From assembly GCF_011006175.1 (NCBI RefSeq), contig NZ_CP048795.1:1356491-1420490 (forward strand): a stretch of DNA of 64,000 bases, in the 5' to 3' direction. The notes under the pieces are model-generated. The model ran no database searches, was not told the origin of the DNA, and saw nothing but the letters and a program-made list of their open reading frames with translations. The stretch is from Hydrogenobacter sp. T-8. Its GTDB lineage: Bacteria; Aquificota; Aquificia; Aquificales; Aquificaceae. The position numbers and the translations under genes are program-made. Below, one piece after another: positions 24,715 through 35,064 of this stretch (position 1 is its first letter; each line of letters begins with the position of its first letter).

Positions 24715-24940
24715 CGCTCACTGGAGGTATGACCGCCACCACTTCCTCTCCCTTTAGCTCGTAGTCTTCACCCACATACTCGTAATTGACCGCAAACCTT
24801 GAGACCTTTATGATATCCTCAAGCTCAGGATATTTTTCAATCAAGAACCTACGGAGTTCCGACACCTTCCCACTAAACTCAATTTCTTCAAACTCAGCCT
24901 TGAGCCTCTCCTTAAGTATAGAAAAGTAAAGAAGTTTCAT
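24707..24940 (-). CDS. moaD: MoaD/ThiS-family sulfur carrier, molybdopterin synthase small subunit
   Basis: A 77-residue ubiquitin-fold protein beginning MKLLYFSILKE and ending in PPVSGG. The terminal Gly-Gly is the site of adenylation and thiocarboxylation in MoaD. It would pass sulfur to precursor Z in molybdenum cofactor synthesis together with MoaE. No other mo-gene is nearby; the neighbours are a Uma2-type gene (4-base overlap) and a glycosyltransferase (8-base overlap). A ThiS-like or other sulfur-carrier role cannot be excluded. Confidence 0.82.
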   Translation of the reverse strand: MKLLYFSILKERLKAEFEEIEFSGKVSELRRFLIEKYPELEDIIKVSRFAVNYEYVGEDYELKGEEVVAVIPPVSGG

Positions 24941-25467
24941 TCCTCAAGCACCTCAGAGAGTTTTATTTTAAGCTCTGGCAAAAGCTCAAACTCCTCGTCA
25001 AAAGAATAAACTTCCACAATGCCTTTTTTATGCAAAAACGCTTTTCTTAGTCTTGGGTCTACGAGCAAAACCCTTTCCACGCCAAAGTCCAAAAGCTCTT
25101 GCACCTTCTCCTCCATTTCTGTGTAGGTATTTGAAGGTGAGAGTATCTCTATCACAAGGTCTGGAGGCACTTCAAGAGCCTTGCCTTTGAGTTTTGGTAG
25201 CTTTTCCTTGCTTATATATACCACGTCAAGCCCTCTAAGTGTTAAAGGCTCTTTTTTAAGCAATATGCCCACTTCACCTACAAGCACATAGCCCTTCTTT
25301 CTCAGCTTACTTTTAAGGTAGTAGGAAAAATCAGCTTCATAAGACCCATGAACATCACCTATTGGAGCCATTTCTACCACCTCACCGTTGACTATTTCAT
25401 AAAGCCCTTCTGGAAGAGTTCCCTTCAGCACATCTTCGTAGGTATATACCCTCTCCTTTACCTGCAT
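24937..25467 (-). CDS. Uma2-family (DUF820) restriction-endonuclease-like protein
   Basis: A 176-residue protein with the Uma2/DUF820 pattern: YEIVNGEVVEMAP at the N-terminus, then a core with LDVVYIS and PDLVIEILSPSNT, the PD-(D/E)xK-like active-site strand and helix, followed by KVQELLDFGVERVLLVDP. The family is a distant relative of restriction endonucleases, abundant in cyanobacteria, with unclear function. It lies between purH (10-base gap) and moaD (overlap) and is probably cotranscribed with them. Confidence 0.85.
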   Translation of the reverse strand: MQVKERVYTYEDVLKGTLPEGLYEIVNGEVVEMAPIGDVHGSYEADFSYYLKSKLRKKGYVLVGEVGILLKKEPLTLRGLDVVYISKEKLPKLKGKALEVPPDLVIEILSPSNTYTEMEEKVQELLDFGVERVLLVDPRLRKAFLHKKGIVEVYSFDEEFELLPELKIKLSEVLEE

Positions 25468-27062: not shown

Positions 27063-28172
27063 ATGGAACTCCATCAAAAAATAAGGCTTATGTCAAGGCT
27101 TGCCAGCTTTGAGAGGGATGGGGATTATAACTTTGAAAGTTGTGTCTTTTACGCTTCCACACCCAAAGGTAAAGTGCCTATCCTCAAGCTCATGCAAACA
27201 ACCATGTGCGATAAAAACTGCATGTATTGTGCCTTTAGAAGAGACAGGGACGAAACAATAAGGATAGCACTAAAGCCTGAAGAAATAGCAAAGGGGTTTA
27301 TGGAACTATACAAGGCGGGAAAGGTAAGCGGGCTTTTTCTTTCCTCGGGCATTTTCGGAAATCCAGACTTTACCATGGAAAGAATGATAGATACCGCAAA
27401 GATACTTAGAGAGAAATATGAATTCAAAGGCTACATACACCTTAAACTCATGCCCGGGGCTTCTTTGCAAAGCGTGGAAGAGGCAGTTAAAGTGGCAAGT
27501 AGAGTCTCCATAAACCTTGAGACCTCAAAGGAAAAGAGACTCAAAGACATAGCAAAGGGTAAAAGCATACTTCAGGATATGCTTCCCAAAATAGAGTATG
27601 TGGATAGGCTTATAAGAGGTCAAAAGGGTAAAAGTCAGATAAGTCAGATGATGGTAGGCGTTGGAGATGAAAAGGATGAGGAGATAATAAAAGCGGTAGA
27701 TTATCTAAACAAACGCTTTAGACTGGGCAGGATATACTTTAGTGCCTTTTTCCCCGTGAAAAACACCCCGCTTGAAAATAGACCACCGGAGAACCCAAAG
27801 AGAGAGCACAGGCTTTATCAGGTTGATTTTCTTATAAGAGAGTATGGCTTTTCTTTTGAAGAGTTAAAACCAGTACTAATAGATGGCAATCTCCCTCTTG
27901 ACAAAGACCCAAAAACTGCATGGGCGGAGGCAAACATGCACCTTTTCCCAGTGGAAATAAACACCGCAGACTACGAAATGCTTATAAAAGTCCCTGGCAT
28001 AGGAAAGGAGACCGCAAAGGAGATATTAAGGAGAAGGAGAGAAAAGAATCTAAGTTCAATTCAAGATTTGAAAGGTATTAGAAACCTAAATAAGATACTA
28101 AATTATGTAGTCATAAATGGAAGATATTTTTGGCAAAATTCTTCATCTTTCCCATCTATTACACAGCTTTAA
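27063..28172 (+). CDS. radical SAM protein with C-terminal helix-hairpin-helix (DNA modification/repair type)
   Basis: A 369-residue protein. The radical SAM cluster motif is CDKNCMYC (C-x3-C-x2-C) near residue 49. A TIM-barrel half follows, and the C-terminus has a helix-hairpin-helix (LIKVPGIGKETAKEILRRR). This combination matches the putative DNA modification/repair radical SAM family (TIGR03916), which usually sits beside a DUF4130 uracil-glycosylase-like partner; no such partner is in the window. It may act on DNA bases. The mRNA looks leaderless. Its last 30 bases overlap the convergent hydrogenase-like small subunit gene. Confidence 0.85.
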   Translation: MELHQKIRLMSRLASFERDGDYNFESCVFYASTPKGKVPILKLMQTTMCDKNCMYCAFRRDRDETIRIALKPEEIAKGFMELYKAGKVSGLFLSSGIFGNPDFTMERMIDTAKILREKYEFKGYIHLKLMPGASLQSVEEAVKVASRVSINLETSKEKRLKDIAKGKSILQDMLPKIEYVDRLIRGQKGKSQISQMMVGVGDEKDEEIIKAVDYLNKRFRLGRIYFSAFFPVKNTPLENRPPENPKREHRLYQVDFLIREYGFSFEELKPVLIDGNLPLDKDPKTAWAEANMHLFPVEINTADYEMLIKVPGIGKETAKEILRRRREKNLSSIQDLKGIRNLNKILNYVVINGRYFWQNSSSFPSITQL

Positions 28173-28643
28173 AAATCCCTCTATTATATGCCTTGGCTCT
28201 GGTGGACATCCAGGTATGTGAAGATGAACTGGTATATGCTTCCCTACTGGACCCTCCACCGCATAGGAATCTTTGAAATAACTACAATCCTTGGTGCAGT
28301 CTCCTAGGGTTACAATAAATTTTGGGTTTGGTGCGTTTTCATATGCCTTTATCATGGGGACGAGCATGTTCCTTGTTACACAACCAGTTATTAAAAGCAC
28401 ATCCGCATGTTTCGGAGAGGCGACAAACTTTATGCCAAACCTTTCTATATCGTAGTATGGATTGTTGAGATTAGCAACCTCCACCTCACAAGCATTACAG
28501 GAGCCAGTATCCACTTCACGGACGAACAGACTGCCACCAAAAACCTTATCTATTGCCTCACGCAGTTCACACAATAACTCTTTGTGTTCTGGCATTATTT
28601 CTTCGGTTTTCAAACGAAAGGCTCTCTTCATAAGAAAAAGCAT
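28143..28643 (-). CDS. Ehr/Hyf-type complex small (NuoB/HyfI-like) Fe-S subunit
   Basis: The 166-residue protein aligns with HycG/HyfI and complex I NuoB. All four ligands of the proximal [4Fe-4S] cluster are present: CNAC supplies two (C-x2-C, as in hydrogenases), then TGCVTR, LGDC and PGCPP. It would carry electrons to or from the large subunit's active site. The ATG at 28643 has an AGGAGG ribosome site that overlaps the stop of the large subunit gene, so the two are a tight pair. Its end overlaps the radical SAM gene by 30 bases. Confidence 0.9.
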   Translation of the reverse strand: MLFLMKRAFRLKTEEIMPEHKELLCELREAIDKVFGGSLFVREVDTGSCNACEVEVANLNNPYYDIERFGIKFVASPKHADVLLITGCVTRNMLVPMIKAYENAPNPKFIVTLGDCTKDCSYFKDSYAVEGPVGKHIPVHLHIPGCPPEPRHIIEGFLKLCNRWER

Positions 28644-28655
28644 AGCTTTCCTCCT

Positions 28656-30143
28656 TTAAAGGTCATTCCCTGCATAAGAAAGGTTCATACTTTTGTTAAC
28701 AAGCGGGAAATCCGCTATTATATCTCCAAGAACTGCATACTGTATTGCTGGCCAGTTTCTAAAGGATGGGTCTACATACTTTAATCTGTATATTTTTCCA
28801 TCCTTATCAAACATCACAAAGAAAAAGGCATTGCCTCTGGGTGTTTCTGCGTTCCCAATATTCCAAGAGTAGGGTTCAGGTTTTTGCATCTTGTTTGCTT
28901 TTTCTGTATGCTCTGGCAAATTCTTGAGAAAAAGTTTTATAAGTCTTATGGACTCATAAATTTCCCTCGTTCTTACAAGAAACCTTGCCATAACATCCCC
29001 TTCTTCAAAAGTATGAAGGTTTACATCCTTGTATGCTAAATATGGAAGCTCTACGCGCGTATCCCTTTCAAGACCAGAAGCTCTGGCACAAACACCGCAA
29101 AGAGACAACTCCATAGCTGTATTTTTGAAAACTCGCCCTGTAGTTTCAAACCTATCCCTTACAGAAGGGGTTTCCAGGGCAAATTCCTCTACCTGTCTTA
29201 TCTCCTCCTCTATAACTCCAAGTAAGTCAATCAAATCCCTTTCCCTATTCCTATTAAAGTCAACCTTCACAGTTCCGAGTTCACACACATCAAACATAAA
29301 CCTGTGACCTGTAAGACTCTTATTAAACCTCATAAGTTTCTCTTGTAATGAAAAAAGGTGCTGAGCGACCAGTGGAAAAGCTATGTCCATGAACAGCCAA
29401 CCTATATCTCTAACGTGGTTCCAAACCCTTTCAAGCTCTCCAAGTATAGACCTTATAACCTTCACCCTTTCAGAAGGTTCAAGTCCAAGAAGTGGTTCAA
29501 CCGCGTTAAGGTATGCTATAGATATATTAACCGCATTATCTCCGGAAATCCTGTTTACAATCTTAAGCACCTGTTTGGGGTCCTTCCCTTCACACAGCTT
29601 TTCTATTCCCCTATGCTTCCAGAAGTGCCTTATCTCCAATTGAAGTATGGCTTCGCCAGCAAGGGAAAACCTAAAATGACCGGGCTCTATTATGCCTGCA
29701 TGTATTGGACCCACAAGTATCTCATTAACTCCATCTCCCATAACCTTTTTATAGGTATAATGACCATAAACCTTAAATTCTGGCTTTTCTCCTTTATAGT
29801 CCTTTCTAAGGGGGTGTATGGCTGGGTCCCAGTTTTCTGGATATAGCATAAGCCTTCTACTATCGGGATGTCCTTCGGGCAAAAGCCCAAACATATCCCT
29901 TATTTCCTTCTCGTAGTTCTTTGAGGATGGACAAAGGGAAACTATAGAGGGAAATTTATCCTCAGTCCTTAGGATGAATACCCTTACACTTCCCTTCTTC
30001 ATAAAGAAATACCTAACCGCAAATCCTCTCCCCAACTCTCTCTCATCACTTCCTACCATACCAAACAGATAGAATCCTTCCCTGATAGCGTCTCTAACCC
30101 TGCTGTAAAGGTTACTACCTTCTACCTCTTCTTCAATGAACAC
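28656..30143 (-). CDS. hydrogenase-related large subunit (HycE/HyfG-like) without Ni-binding cysteines
   Basis: A 495-residue fusion of a NuoC-like domain (about 1-118) and a NuoD/HycE-like domain. The family's nickel ligands come from RxCGxC and DPCxxC. Here the first is R-I-S-G-D-N (198-203) and the second D-P-S-F-R-N (458-463): all four cysteines are replaced by Ser, Asn, Ser and Asn. The segment HAGIIEPGHFRF and the peptide KHRGIEKLCEG are otherwise Hyc-like. It therefore cannot bind a NiFe centre in the usual way and fits the energy-converting-hydrogenase-related (Ehr) type. The start is GTG, 7 bases after a TATAAT. The reaction is unknown. Confidence 0.9.
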   Translation of the reverse strand: MFIEEEVEGSNLYSRVRDAIREGFYLFGMVGSDERELGRGFAVRYFFMKKGSVRVFILRTEDKFPSIVSLCPSSKNYEKEIRDMFGLLPEGHPDSRRLMLYPENWDPAIHPLRKDYKGEKPEFKVYGHYTYKKVMGDGVNEILVGPIHAGIIEPGHFRFSLAGEAILQLEIRHFWKHRGIEKLCEGKDPKQVLKIVNRISGDNAVNISIAYLNAVEPLLGLEPSERVKVIRSILGELERVWNHVRDIGWLFMDIAFPLVAQHLFSLQEKLMRFNKSLTGHRFMFDVCELGTVKVDFNRNRERDLIDLLGVIEEEIRQVEEFALETPSVRDRFETTGRVFKNTAMELSLCGVCARASGLERDTRVELPYLAYKDVNLHTFEEGDVMARFLVRTREIYESIRLIKLFLKNLPEHTEKANKMQKPEPYSWNIGNAETPRGNAFFFVMFDKDGKIYRLKYVDPSFRNWPAIQYAVLGDIIADFPLVNKSMNLSYAGNDL

Positions 30144-30150
30144 AATTAGA

Positions 30151-30156
30151 ATTATA
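30151..30156 (-). promoter_or_regulatory. extended -10 for the large/small subunit operon
   Basis: On the minus strand TGTTATAAT (TG, one base, TATAAT) stands 7 bases before the GTG start of the large subunit. No Shine-Dalgarno sequence is present. Confidence 0.5.
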
Positions 30157-30168
30157 ACACTTGTTCTG

Positions 30169-30177
30169 TGGTATAAT
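30169..30177 (+). promoter_or_regulatory. extended -10 for the membrane-subunit operon
   Basis: TGGTATAAT (TG, one base, TATAAT) ends 10 bases before ATG 30188. The upstream in-frame TTG 30161 and ATG 30176 lie before or inside this element, so ATG 30188 is the likely start. Confidence 0.5.
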
Positions 30178-30187
30178 GATTATTATC

Positions 30188-32044
30188 ATGTCCGAAGGTT
30201 CAAGTAGTGGAAGCCTAAGCGTTTTCAAACACGCACCACTTGTTGCCTCATCTTTTATAGCCTTATCCCTTTTGCTTTTACCAAGGGAGTTCACAGTTCA
30301 GCTGGGCTTTTTTGAGGCATACTTCAAACTTGACGCTCTATCTATATTTTTTTCTTCTCTTCTTGCTTTTGTATCTTTTTATGTTTCTATATACACCATT
30401 GGATATGTTAGTGAGTTAAAGGGAAAAGCTCATCTTGTCTTAATCCTTACAGGGGTATTTATACTTTCCATGTTTTTCACTATTATAAGCAACGATCTAA
30501 TTAGCTTTCTCTTCTTTTGGGAGATAATGTCTCTATCTTCTTTTTATCTCGTTATTAGTGATGAGGGGAAAGAAAGCTCAAAGGTAGGATTTATATACCT
30601 TTTAATGACCCATCTGGGAACAGCGTTTATAATTCTTTCTTTTCTTCTTTTATACATAAAAACCTCATCCATGAGTTTTGATAGTTTTCGTGGTTCTGCA
30701 GACCTCTACATTGTATTGTTAGCACTTTTAGGTTTTTCTGTGAAGGCTGGAATAGTTCCTTTTCATGTATGGCTACCCTATGCACACCCTGTAGCACCTT
30801 CTAATGTCTCAGCCCTTATGTCTGGGGTGATGCTAAACACAGCTATCTATGGTATGATGAGGTTTCTTTTTGAATTTTCCTCTTCAAACTTTCTCTTTAC
30901 AAGTCTGCTACTTATCGTTTTCGGTTGTCTCTCTCTTGTGTATGGTGCCATTTACTCTCTTACTGAGTCAAGCGTTAAAAAGTTTCTTGCATACTCTAGC
31001 ATAGAAAACATGGGCTTGTTAGTTATTGGTATGGGTTTGGCTAATCTTGGTCTTTACAAAGAAATTCTGCCCATATACTCTACATCTAAAGCCTTTGTAT
31101 TGCTACATACCTTAAACCACTCTCTTCTAAAAAGCTCTCTCTTTATGGGTGCAGGGGTTATGGTCAAGATGACCCATGAATATAGTATGAACAGGCTTGG
31201 TGGCCTTTCAAAGGCAAGCCCATTGCTCTTTTACCTCATGTTAGTATCTTCTGTCTTTATTTCCGCTCTTCCTCCTTCTAATGTCTTTTTCAGCGAACTG
31301 CTCCTTTACAAAACCCTTTTCTTAGCTCTAAATATCAAAGGTGACCCTTCGTCCTACATACTGATACTTGTGCTTACTCTACTTGCACTGTCTGGCGTTT
31401 TCGTAGGTGCTACCTTTGTAAAGTTTATTGGGGTGGTTTTCTTAGGAAAGTCCAGGGGTGCAAAGGTCTCCAACAAACCAAGCGTAGCTGAACTCTTTGG
31501 AATAGCATTACCAGTCGCCCTTTCTGTTTCAATAGGCATTTATCCATATCCTTTGCTTAGTATCCTTTCTAACATATATTCCCTTTCCCTTCCAGACCTT
31601 AACTACTTACCCTTTAATCTCTTATTCGTGTCCTTTATTCTTTTACTTGTTATTTTCCTCGCCATGAGAAAAAACAGGGCACGCATTTACGAAACATGGA
31701 TTTGTGGACTTGATGAAGAAAATCCATCCGCACAAGCTACTACCCTTTCCCAAACCTATAGCATAAGGAGACTTTTTTCTATGTTTTACTCCACTGTATC
31801 TGAGATAAATTTTGATGCGGAGATAAAAAAGTATTTCAGAAGCAGTATTTTATACAAAGAAGAATTAAAAGATATTTTTGAAGAGAAGATATATAAAAGA
31901 CTTGCTGGTTATATACTTGCCGTCTCAGACCAAATTAGGAAAATACTCCAGACTGGAAATATAAATCTTTACATAAGCTATATATTCCTTACACTTCTTC
32001 TCTGTTTTCTTATTTACATAGTGCTAACAGGAGAAAAACCATGA
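30188..32044 (+). CDS. Ehr/Hyf-type complex antiporter-like subunit (HyfB/NuoL-like)
   Basis: The protein has about 618 residues from ATG 30188, with some 14-16 membrane helices. Pump-type residues are visible: a lysine in the discontinuous-helix region GFSVKAGIVPFHVWLPYAHPVAPS and a further lysine in HSLLKSSLF. A soluble C-terminal extension with charged residues (about 510-600) ends in another hydrophobic helix. It should translocate protons or sodium in the membrane arm. It is the first gene of a four-gene plus-strand operon divergent from the large subunit; its stop overlaps the next gene by 4 bases. Confidence 0.9.
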   Translation: MSEGSSSGSLSVFKHAPLVASSFIALSLLLLPREFTVQLGFFEAYFKLDALSIFFSSLLAFVSFYVSIYTIGYVSELKGKAHLVLILTGVFILSMFFTIISNDLISFLFFWEIMSLSSFYLVISDEGKESSKVGFIYLLMTHLGTAFIILSFLLLYIKTSSMSFDSFRGSADLYIVLLALLGFSVKAGIVPFHVWLPYAHPVAPSNVSALMSGVMLNTAIYGMMRFLFEFSSSNFLFTSLLLIVFGCLSLVYGAIYSLTESSVKKFLAYSSIENMGLLVIGMGLANLGLYKEILPIYSTSKAFVLLHTLNHSLLKSSLFMGAGVMVKMTHEYSMNRLGGLSKASPLLFYLMLVSSVFISALPPSNVFFSELLLYKTLFLALNIKGDPSSYILILVLTLLALSGVFVGATFVKFIGVVFLGKSRGAKVSNKPSVAELFGIALPVALSVSIGIYPYPLLSILSNIYSLSLPDLNYLPFNLLFVSFILLLVIFLAMRKNRARIYETWICGLDEENPSAQATTLSQTYSIRRLFSMFYSTVSEINFDAEIKKYFRSSILYKEELKDIFEEKIYKRLAGYILAVSDQIRKILQTGNINLYISYIFLTLLLCFLIYIVLTGEKP

Positions 32045-32988
32045 ATTTACTTCTTGGTATCATACAGGCTCTTATGGTGCTTATGTTAGCCCCATTCTTT
32101 GCAGGTTTTATTCACAAGCTAAAGCAAAGAATAAGAGGTCAAAAGGGCATAAGCGTCTTTCAACTTTACAGAAACCTCTATAAACTCCACAAGAAAGAAA
32201 TAGTCCTTTCAAAGGACACAAGTTTAGTCTCAAGACTTGCTCCATATTTCTACTTTTTGCCTCATGCTCTACTATGCTTTATGCTTCCCTTTTTCTATGA
32301 AAGCCCTTTACTTGGAAACTCTTCAAACCCTGTTGTTCTTCTATACCTTCTGTCTCTATCTATATTCTTCATGACCCTTTATGCCCTTGATCAGGCAAGC
32401 TCCTTTGGAGCTCTTGGGTCAAGCAGAGAATGGTTTATAAGCAGTCTATCAGAACCAAGCGCGATTTTGCTTTTGTTTTCTCTTTGCATATACACTGGAG
32501 AATTCAATCTAAGCCATGCCTTTTTAACACTAAGCAATGAGCTTCGCTCCTTCTTCTCTGAGCACCCAAGCCGTTTTTCAATAAGCATCCCATTCCTCCT
32601 TTTGTTTACCCTACTAATACTCACGCTTGCTGAGAACGCACGCATACCTTTTGATAATCCAGAAACCCACTTAGAGCTTACCATGGTCCACGAAGCCAAC
32701 ATACTGGAGGCAAGCGGTCCACATCTGCTACTCTTTGAATATGGCTCTTATCTAAGACTTACCCTGTTTCTAAGCATCATGTCCATACTTATCTTTCCCT
32801 TTATAGGTGATTCTACTTTCTATCCTTTGGCTTTTGCCCTTTATCTGTTAAAGATGCTGTTTCTTTGTATACTCATCGCCTTTGTAGAATCTTTCAATGC
32901 GAAGATGAGGCTATTTAGAATTCCAAACGTCCTATCTTTTGCTTTTGTCCTTTCCTTACTTACACTTATACTTTCTATGGAGGCTTAA
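32041..32988 (+). CDS. Ehr/Hyf-type complex NuoH-like subunit (HyfC-like)
   Basis: A 315-residue membrane protein with about eight helices. The loop RIRGQKGISVFQLYRN and the segment ENARIPFDNPETHLELTMVHE are the signatures of the HyfC/HycD/NuoH subunit, which connects the soluble module with the membrane pumps; the acidic residues of the latter loop are conserved. Translation is coupled to the preceding gene (ATGA). It ends two bases before the GTG start of the next subunit. Confidence 0.9.
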   Translation: MNLLLGIIQALMVLMLAPFFAGFIHKLKQRIRGQKGISVFQLYRNLYKLHKKEIVLSKDTSLVSRLAPYFYFLPHALLCFMLPFFYESPLLGNSSNPVVLLYLLSLSIFFMTLYALDQASSFGALGSSREWFISSLSEPSAILLLFSLCIYTGEFNLSHAFLTLSNELRSFFSEHPSRFSISIPFLLLFTLLILTLAENARIPFDNPETHLELTMVHEANILEASGPHLLLFEYGSYLRLTLFLSIMSILIFPFIGDSTFYPLAFALYLLKMLFLCILIAFVESFNAKMRLFRIPNVLSFAFVLSLLTLILSMEA

Positions 32989-32989
32989 G

Positions 32990-33634
32990 GTGGAAAAGTT
33001 AGCGAGTTTTTTTGCTCTTATGGTTTTGGTATCAGCGGTTTTGAATGTTGCATCTCCCTTTTTAAAATTTGCCATAAGACTAAACATGCTACAATCATGG
33101 ATGCTTGCCTTCTATATACTTGTGGTTGCTATAAGCTCGGGTGTCTTCCATCTTTACCTTTCCTTCTTGGCTACTTTAGTTTTTAAGGGCATACTTATAC
33201 CTATTTTGCTCTTTAGAGTTCTTAAAAGAACTGGTAGGGAAAGGGAACTTGATATGGTCATAAGCATACCATCTGCGGTAGTGATATCTGGTATTCTCAT
33301 AATCATATCCGCCATACTTCTTACAAAGTTCGGTGGTCTTGAATTTCTCTTTGGCAGGTTTGTTTTTGTGTCTTCACTATCAACCTTCTTCATAGGTGGT
33401 ATGCTTCTTGTTATAAGAAAAATCCTCTTTTCCCAAATACTTGGGCTTTTAATAATGGAGAACGCCATATTCCTCGCTGCAAATAGTGCAGTTACAGGAA
33501 TGCCTTTGGTGGTAGAGCTTGGTATACTTTTTGACATACTTGTAAGTATACTTATAGCTTCTGTTTTACTGCTTCGCATAATGAAAAACTTTGAAGATAT
33601 TAGAGTTGATGACCTGGAGGTGTTGAAAGAATGA
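32990..33634 (+). CDS. Ehr/Hyf-type complex HyfE-like membrane subunit
   Basis: The 214-residue protein has about seven helices and matches HyfE, the subunit whose C-terminal half resembles NuoK. The glutamate in LLIMENAIFLAA is the NuoK-type membrane residue. The start is taken as GTG 32990 because GGAGG stands 7 bases before it; an ATG at 32939 lies inside the preceding gene and has no ribosome site. It overlaps the next gene by 4 bases. Confidence 0.85.
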   Translation: MEKLASFFALMVLVSAVLNVASPFLKFAIRLNMLQSWMLAFYILVVAISSGVFHLYLSFLATLVFKGILIPILLFRVLKRTGRERELDMVISIPSAVVISGILIIISAILLTKFGGLEFLFGRFVFVSSLSTFFIGGMLLVIRKILFSQILGLLIMENAIFLAANSAVTGMPLVVELGILFDILVSILIASVLLLRIMKNFEDIRVDDLEVLKE

Positions 33635-35064
33635 TTTCAATACTCTTTTTACTACCCGCATTAGGTCTTCTTCTTTCACTTTTGGTAGATGTTCTTATCA
33701 TGTCCTATCTACAGCTTCTTATATCTCTTAGTTTGTTCCTTTCAAGCCTTTACATTTTCTTTCATAAGGAATATTCTACGCATTTATACAATCTCTTTTT
33801 TGTGGACCCTGTGAATTCTTTTCTTCTTTTGACTGTTGCCCTGCTTGAGCTTTTTGTAGTCTTTTACTCCTTTGGCTACATAAGAACAGAAATATCTCAA
33901 GGAATGTCTAAAAGACGTTTTAAGTATTACTATTTTTGGAAAAATGGCTTTATCTTTAGCATGATACTTTCCATACTTTCCAACAATCTTGGCGTGTATT
34001 GGGTTGGATTGGAAGCTACCACCCTAACAACAGCCTTTCTTATAGCCTTCTACAGAAGTAAAGAATCCTACGAGGCTTCATGGAAGTATGTAATAATGTG
34101 TTCTATTGGTATCACATTAGGTCTTTTTGCTATTGTATTACTTTATTATTCAACCGCGCACATATACGGTGAAAGTCTAAAAGCTCTTTCTTTCCTTGAT
34201 ATAATGGTTTCAGTTCAAAAACTTGACAAAGATATACTTTTCCTTTCTTTTATACTTGCCCTTGTAGGCTTTGGCACAAAGGTAGGCTTTGCACCTATGC
34301 ATAACTGGCTTCCCGATGCACACTCTCAGGCACCAAGCCCTATCAGTGTTCTTCTCTCTGGCGTTCTCCTAAACACCGCTTTACTTGGTGTTTTAAGGTT
34401 TTATCAGATAAATGAAAAGGCTGGCGTAGGCTATGCAAGGGACTTTATGATATTCTTTGGTTTTCTTACCCTTTTCCTTGCAAGTTTGATTATGCTAAGG
34501 CAAGGAGAATATAAAAGGCTTTTTGCTTATTCTTCTATGGAAAACATGGGTCTTATAGCTCTTGGCTTTGGTGTAGGTGGCTATGGTGCTTTTGGTGCGT
34601 TTTTTCACATACTTTTTCATGCTATAGCAAAAGGCGTGCTTTTTATGACTTCTGGAAATATACTTTCTGTGTTGCACGAAAGGAGAATTGAAAAGATAAA
34701 TGGACTTTTTAAAGATATGAAAACTACCTCCTTTGTAATGCTTTTAGGCTTAGCCAGTATATCTGGATTACCGCCTTTTTCTACCTTTTTTAGCAAGATT
34801 TACATAATAATTGGTGTTATTCAAAAGAGCCACTTTCTTGGTATTTTAGTTTTGTTTTCTCTTGCGGTAGCCTTTTCTGGAATTTTCTGGCAGATTTTAC
34901 CTATGCTTTCTGGAATTAGTAAAGGAGAAAGAGAAAAAGTTTTACACCCATTTATGATAATAATACCAACATTAATGTTGCTTATATTGATAGCTCTCAC
35001 TTTCTATACGCCAGAGACTTTAACTCAAATTATAAAAATGGCGGTCAACGAGTTATATGGATAG
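33631..35064 (+). CDS. Ehr/Hyf-type complex second antiporter-like subunit (HyfF/NuoN-like)
   Basis: The 477-residue protein has about 14 helices. It carries a GTKVGFAPMHNWLPDAHSQAPSPIS lysine/histidine loop, an acidic residue in GLEATTLTTAF and a later lysine in HAIAKGVLFM, as in HyfF and NuoM/N. It would be the second ion pump of the complex. It ends in a 12-base overlap with the convergent lysA. The operon holds no HyfD and no ferredoxin-like HyfA/HyfH subunit. Confidence 0.9.
   Translation: MISILFLLPALGLLLSLLVDVLIMSYLQLLISLSLFLSSLYIFFHKEYSTHLYNLFFVDPVNSFLLLTVALLELFVVFYSFGYIRTEISQGMSKRRFKYYYFWKNGFIFSMILSILSNNLGVYWVGLEATTLTTAFLIAFYRSKESYEASWKYVIMCSIGITLGLFAIVLLYYSTAHIYGESLKALSFLDIMVSVQKLDKDILFLSFILALVGFGTKVGFAPMHNWLPDAHSQAPSPISVLLSGVLLNTALLGVLRFYQINEKAGVGYARDFMIFFGFLTLFLASLIMLRQGEYKRLFAYSSMENMGLIALGFGVGGYGAFGAFFHILFHAIAKGVLFMTSGNILSVLHERRIEKINGLFKDMKTTSFVMLLGLASISGLPPFSTFFSKIYIIIGVIQKSHFLGILVLFSLAVAFSGIFWQILPMLSGISKGEREKVLHPFMIIIPTLMLLILIALTFYTPETLTQIIKMAVNELYG

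Follow-up and report, generated by a model that had tools for sequence, protein, structure and literature searches.

The Ehr cluster of Hydrogenobacter sp. T-8: a six-subunit, nickel-less relative of complex I that may not be run on electrons

Ehr complexes occur in nitrifiers, methanogens, Aquificota and Patescibacteria, and despite this range of hosts their function is called unknown or conjectural in the available portions of the literature. Here we describe the Ehr cluster of Hydrogenobacter sp. T-8 (Aquificota), which occupies 28143-35064 of a 64,000-nucleotide stretch of contig NZ_CP048795.1 (positions 1,356,491 to 1,420,490, forward strand; hereafter the window). Six genes in two divergent units were assigned to their families with Pfam and NCBIfam (Table 1). 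Judged from its sequence, the cluster is a standard six-subunit Ehr, consisting of HyfB-, HyfC/NuoH-, HyfE- and HyfF-like membrane subunits, a NuoC-D-like large subunit and a NuoB-like small subunit. The combination that marks an Ehr, a NuoB-like small subunit and a HyfB/C/E/F-like membrane arm within one cluster, is thus present, and the features that mark a group-4 [NiFe] hydrogenase, namely four nickel (Ni) cysteines and a HycF/HyfH-type 2[4Fe-4S] subunit in the cluster, are absent.

Table 1. Genes and promoter elements of the Ehr cluster, in window coordinates (ORF, open reading frame)
Feature	Position	Strand	Evidence
Small subunit (NuoB/HycG-like, 166 aa)	28143-28643	-	PF01058, E 3.7e-26
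Large subunit (HycE/HyfG-like NuoC+NuoD fusion, 495 aa, GTG start)	28656-30143	-	PF00329 + PF00346
Extended -10 element TGTTATAAT, soluble-subunit unit	30151-30159	-	exact match
Extended -10 element TGGTATAAT, membrane-subunit unit	30169-30177	+	exact match
HyfB-like antiporter-like subunit	30188-32044	+	PF00361
HyfC/NuoH-like subunit	32041-32988	+	PF00146
HyfE-like subunit	ORF 32939-33634	+	NF008556, E 2.1e-15, below cut-off
HyfF-like antiporter-like subunit	33631-35064	+	PF00361

The membrane arm retains the residues associated with ion translocation. The best NCBIfam matches of the two antiporter-like subunits are NF005086 (hydrogenase 4 subunit B) and NF005044 (hydrogenase 4 subunit F), each below the cut-off of the model; the channel residues E121, K195, K273, K324 and E379 are kept in the former protein (numbered from the ORF start, a TTG at 30161; the ATG at 30188 fits the promoter) and E128, K217, K334 and K364 in the latter. 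The HyfC/NuoH-like subunit keeps the acids E130, E138, E198, D205, E212, E218, E223 and E233. The HyfE-like protein probably starts near 32990; its counterpart in the related locus L035 starts at the equivalent of VEKLASFF. An Mrp antiporter is a seven- or six-subunit set without a soluble arm. The Ehr cluster differs from it in its large and small soluble subunits, and for HyfB and HyfF the Mrp models score below those of hydrogenase 4. The small subunit carries no ferredoxin domain and has all four proximal-cluster cysteines (C49, C52, C116 and C146), which by their ligand columns make up one [4Fe-4S] site. Its AlphaFold2 model (mean predicted local distance difference test score, pLDDT, 93.1) finds as top Foldseek matches MbhJ of membrane-bound hydrogenase (6cfw_J) and HycG of formate hydrogenlyase (FHL; 7z0s_G).

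An initial annotation of this DNA had described an unusually minimal complex, lacking a ferredoxin-like subunit and HyfD, that would pass electrons from an intact proximal cluster and pump ions with a partner perhaps encoded elsewhere. Its inventory stands: all six genes are there in two divergent operons, no HyfA, HyfD or HyfH-type gene lies within the cluster, and the cysteines are in place. The claim of minimality does not hold, since the same six genes are the norm, occurring together in 65 of the 88 Ni-less loci of our sample, which covers many phyla. These loci come largely from a scan of named genomes in which the best 80 of 579 relatives by match were used, so that locus counts are biased by identity to the Aquificota query; the 80 cover Nitrospira, ammonia-oxidising archaea, methanogens, Rokubacteria, Acidobacteria, Verrucomicrobia, Patescibacteria and Bacillota.

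Published accounts (cited by PubMed Central number; what is said of each refers to the excerpts available) agree with this composition. Ehr from Geobacter, Nitrospira, ammonia-oxidising archaea, Sulfobacillus and Patescibacteria share the Ni-less HyfG-like large subunit and the HyfB/C/E/F-like arm. Six syntenic genes accompany each Ni-less catalytic subunit in Sulfobacillus (PMC4378227), and the Ehr subunits named in Geobacter include no ferredoxin (PMC7894505). The further reading, of a complex that must be an electron-driven pump with its partner elsewhere in the genome, is not supported. In addition, Ehr is carried by ammonia-oxidising archaea (PMC10432482), its large subunit in Patescibacteria has no metal cysteines (PMC7304191), in comammox Nitrospira it is placed near group 4f with a function called unknown (PMC10284858), and its expression in Nitrospirales is not increased by H2 (PMC12342949).

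Compared with FHL and hydrogenase 4 of Escherichia coli (HycB-G, HyfA-J), the cluster is alike in the fold of the large subunit, in the small subunit and in the order B-C-E-F-G-(H)-I, but is without HyfA, HyfD, HyfH and the Ni cysteines. With respiratory complex I it shares NuoB, NuoCD, NuoH and the antiporter-like subunits, whereas NuoI, NuoE, NuoF and NuoG are absent from it. In the large subunit, Ser200, Ser489 and Gly492 stand in for three of the four Ni-ligand cysteines, and a residue other than Cys occupies the fourth site. Only four columns switch between hydrogenase and Ehr (C200S, E487N, C489S and C492G), and the window copy has the Ehr state in all of them (S200, N487, S489, G492). 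Quinone is bound in complex I by a His and a Tyr of NuoD; in an alignment with both NuoCD proteins of this genome, the window large subunit has Ile152 and Gly201 in these columns. The rest of the protein is well kept. Its AlphaFold2 model (pLDDT 92.4) is closest in fold to HycE of FHL (7z0s_E, TM 0.94), and 70 columns are common at 90% or more to Ehr with and without a proximal cluster, 65 of which are also shared with the Ni-bearing sisters from Bacillota and Brocadia, the four Ni cysteines being found in the sisters only.

A tree was built from the last 535 residues of 102 large subunits (103 loci, minus L048, L049 and L054 with fewer than 400 residues, plus two E. coli rows). The window copy falls in the Ni-less group (87 rows; SH-aLRT 94, not starred), apart from the Ni-bearing sisters. 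With the root at E. coli HycE/HyfG, the Ni-bearing rows lie outside this large group, which makes loss the simpler direction; one Bacillota row, L091, shows a separate loss of part of its Ni site.

In the E. coli hyf operon G, H and I are consecutive, H being the 2[4Fe-4S] subunit. Among the 12 Ni-bearing loci with four Ni cysteines, ten have a small subunit that opens with a fused two-cluster ferredoxin domain of the HyfH type, and two ferredoxin clusters are found in 12 of 14 Ni-bearing rows when the two from E. coli are included. In the 76 Ni-less small subunits that are visible, the domain has two clusters in four, one cluster in 11 and is absent from 61, as called from motifs; the cysteines retained in the one-cluster state are always those of the second cluster (CP...CxxCxxC). 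At least nine changes of the ferredoxin state are counted on the tree, irrespective of direction.

Ferredoxin-less small subunits often start like HyfH or HycF (Nitrospira MFRIIKKSLKTGVVTGQYP, HycF MFTFIKKVIKTGTATSSYP), and a helix is described at the N-terminus of HycF and in every solved structure of the superfamily, according to the excerpt of the FHL paper. A profile of HyfH-type N-termini, made from 12 sequences of which two (L070, L084) were taken from an over-long start, scores at least 8 bits in 21 of the 61 ferredoxin-less small subunits, with Nitrospira at 27 to 33 bits. This threshold was reached by none of 1830 shuffled sequences, none of 590 flanking ORFs and one of 380 other Ehr subunits. 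Small subunits that are not fused score low (HycG 0.6, HyfI no match, and 12 further group-4 small subunits no higher than 2.0 bits), and the NuoI genes of the Hydrogenobacter genome match weakly (9.9 and 4.5 bits). A relic membrane helix on small subunits without ferredoxin probably means that the domain was excised from a fusion, behind the helix. The available parts of the Ehr literature hold no mention that we found of a fused-ferredoxin history or of cluster-free small subunits.

The proximal cluster itself appears dispensable in part of the family. Its ligands are complete in 52 of the 76 Ni-less small subunits, partial in two and lost in 22; the calls again rest on motifs, L080 showing only two of the four ligand places. 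The 22 comprise a Patescibacteria-rich group (xCDD and similar), a group of methanogens, Altiarchaeales and Dehalococcoidales (DTDN) and two long branches; in a further archaeal survey the ligands were missing from 13 of 15 Ehr small subunits. Small-subunit matches occur in 15 of 379 Patescibacteria genomes, and the seven such genomes of the first loci have one match apiece. Cluster-free and cluster-bearing small subunits differ at C49, C116, C146 and P62 and have 29 columns in common at 90% or more. In all three classes (Ni-bearing, cluster-bearing and cluster-free) the antiporter-like subunits have intact channel residues and the NuoH-like subunit has its acids, and the membrane Lys, Glu and His residues are retained in both kinds of Ehr. 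Several lineages have no recognisable redox site at all (Ni, both ferredoxin clusters and proximal cluster) and carry Asp, Thr or Asn in place of the ligands, yet all six subunits are still encoded and their channel residues are intact. The replacements differ (xCDD, DTDN), and the small-subunit gene stands either first or last; both features speak for two or more losses without proving them. Separately, one Patescibacteria small subunit (L201:9156-9902) retains a one-cluster ferredoxin domain and has lost the proximal ligands (DADN).

The expectation that electrons pass through the window complex is weakened by these 22 losses and by the absence of Ni and quinone ligands from the large subunit. 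None of the 65 complete Ni-less six-gene clusters includes a separate ferredoxin gene; of four raw ferredoxin-motif matches, two were frame overlaps with subunits and two were opposite-strand genes nearby. The genome itself was scanned for the orphan polyferredoxin or NuoI that the initial annotation had proposed to look for. Both NuoI genes (G000:C1:294145 and 304577) sit inside runs of nuo genes, and an orphan NuoI was rejected as a partner. By eye, the complex I genes around 1.63 Mb comprise A, B, CD and H and lack I, which could be supplied by the run from NuoI to N around 294 kb. Dicluster proteins were picked by the motif CxxCxxCxxxCP, so that ferredoxins without it would be missed, and ten of them were scanned further, leaving aside the second ORF of L218, L219, L221, L222 and L224; none of the ten is HycF/HyfH-like above the cut-off. 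The other types found are DMSO-reductase-type beta, formate dehydrogenase beta, Sdh/Frd-type, HdrC-like, GlcF/LdhH-like and sulfite-reductase-type. A recurrent neighbour was also rejected as a partner: families found in at least four loci comprise, by eye, signalling kinases, short regulators, an ABC protein, a CBS protein, an ATPase and a transporter, as well as F1-ATPase, the only family checked with Pfam, and no redox protein is seen among them. Cluster-free Ehr genes immediately follow F1-ATPase genes on the same strand at L080:1-2696, L085:1166-3726, L114:234-3725 and L199:8819-16815 (Patescibacteria-type), the identity of the ATPase being Pfam-checked in the last three, and this position suggests a role in ion balance.

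These results bear on the possibility that Ehr is a redox-driven ion pump, in which a soluble ferredoxin or another carrier would directly reduce the exposed proximal cluster and electrons would pass on to an acceptor in the pocket of the large subunit. Such a pump would account for the proximal ligands in all Aquificota copies and in 52 of 76 Ehr; a coupling of formate dehydrogenase to Ehr has been hypothesised for Margulisbacteria (PMC6349859) and is suggested by Geobacter proteomics (PMC7894505), and the Hydrogenobacter genome has a formate dehydrogenase beta subunit. However, both the Ni ligands and the quinone His/Tyr pair are absent, neither a ferredoxin gene in the complete clusters nor, by eye, a redox neighbour recurring in at least four loci was found, and cluster-free relatives retain the whole complex, which leaves the pump unlikely. 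With the ferredoxin reduced or lost, the proximal ligands gone from 22 of 76 small subunits and the quinone residues missing, a hidden ferredoxin partner is not the best reading, and the absence of the ferredoxin would reflect the stripping of redox parts more than the want of a partner.

We therefore prefer to view the window Ehr as a proton or cation translocator that is not driven by ordinary electron flow, to which we give a probability of about one half. Ehr would descend from a Ni-bearing group-4 hydrogenase of the FHL/Hyf type by stepwise removal of redox parts, in an order and direction that we infer from the losses read in the sequences. The Ni-ligand cysteines would have been replaced first; the fused HyfH-type 2[4Fe-4S] domain would then have been reduced and excised, leaving only the N-terminal membrane helix in several lineages; and in some lineages the proximal cluster would have followed. 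The losses would have spared the arm that translocates ions, the acid chain in the NuoH-like subunit and the remaining core of the large subunit. The window copy would stand at the second stage, with one cluster, no wire into it and no recognisable acceptor beyond. The soluble arm may gate the entry of protons, for example in an antiporter or a gradient-balancing device, and the leftover cluster may be structural or regulatory. More broadly, we put forward tentatively that Ehr is a complex I relative not run on electrons, of which the window copy would be a half-dismantled member.

Several observations weigh against this translocator without electron flow. Four cluster ligands are retained in 52 of 76 Ehr small subunits, including all those seen in Aquificota, which implies that the cluster matters there, and 15 of 76 small subunits retain one or both ferredoxin clusters. 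The N-terminus of the window small subunit scores -1.5 bits on the helix profile, although its Aquificota relatives L043 to L046 do score (8.1 to 13.6 bits). An approximately unbiased test of one against several cluster losses, from which rows without a visible small subunit and the long branches L101 and L201 were excluded, gave p 0.07, short of firm support for independent losses. The increase of Ehr subunits with formate in Geobacter, as reported in the excerpt (PMC7894505), fits a redox role. Finally, an Aquificota relative from another family of the class (G128, outside the set of 65 clusters) has a NIL-ferredoxin gene (L049:1163-1579) 126 bases before the HyfB gene.

A single cluster without an acceptor site, conserved where it is retained and dispensable elsewhere, would also suit a redox-gated antiporter, in which the cluster senses the redox state of a soluble carrier and switches the channel with no electron through-flow, cluster-free lineages having dropped this control. 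No sensor of such make-up was found in the portions of the literature available, and we consider this arrangement quite unlikely. Single-cluster copies like that of the window are the place where redox and non-redox views can be separated by experiment. If part of the Ehr family indeed has no redox site, looking for an electron partner is the wrong course in that part, and Ehr would offer a natural test, relevant to the debate on coupling, of whether a complex I-type ion arm works without electron transfer.

The distribution of Ehr in Aquificota is patchy. Strong large-subunit matches (E < 1e-60) were found in 15 of 136 genomes, that of Hydrogenobacter sp. T-8 included, and the next matches, near E 1e-48, are other group-4 or complex I proteins. 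Ten of the 14 other genomes have all six genes clustered; the remaining copies are truncated at contig ends, divided between two contigs (G128) or broken apart (G038). This patchiness, and the broken cluster of G038 with its displaced HyfC-like gene, could mark the Ehr genes as decaying, functionless relics, but the 70 large-subunit columns kept in cluster-bearing and cluster-free Ehr, the intact membrane residues and a gene order preserved across phyla make that highly improbable. In G038, which belongs to the same genus as the window, the HyfE gene is shortened beside an ORF that by eye resembles a transposase (L047:8867-13873), and the HyfC-like gene lies about 20 kb away (G038:C1:180607-181491). 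In the tree, the G038 large subunit is placed among those of Nitrospirota, an indication of transfer.

The divergent layout is peculiar to few copies. The commonest gene orders among the 88 Ni-less loci are B-H-E-F-L-S (36 loci) and S-B-H-E-F-L (19 loci), where H denotes the HyfC/NuoH-like gene and L and S the large and small subunits; the arrangement S<L< B>H>E>F> occurs only in the window copy and L035. The two extended -10 elements match exactly and stand back to back, with 15 bases between the hexamers, and the predicted messages of both units are nearly leaderless (GTG at 30143 for the large subunit, ATG at 30188 for the HyfB-like subunit). The motif TGNTATAAT occurs nine times in the window against 2.06 expected, a count reached by none of 100 shuffles. 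A scan based on -35 elements found no sigma-70 site between the units, as expected for extended -10 promoters. In L035 the hexamers are weaker (TGGTACAAT on the minus strand, TGCTAAAAT on the plus strand), and the gap between them is 14 bases.

Beside the cluster, at 27063-28172, lies a gene whose product, a radical SAM protein ending in a helix-hairpin-helix tail, matches the rSAM_link_UDG type below the cut-off; on the opposite strand, the gene shares 30 bases with the end of that for the small subunit. Small genes that by eye are Uma2-like, two of them near-copies, are found inside both complex I runs of the genome (L211:15908-18074 and L212:8601-9137), and a similar gene is present in the window at 24937-25467.

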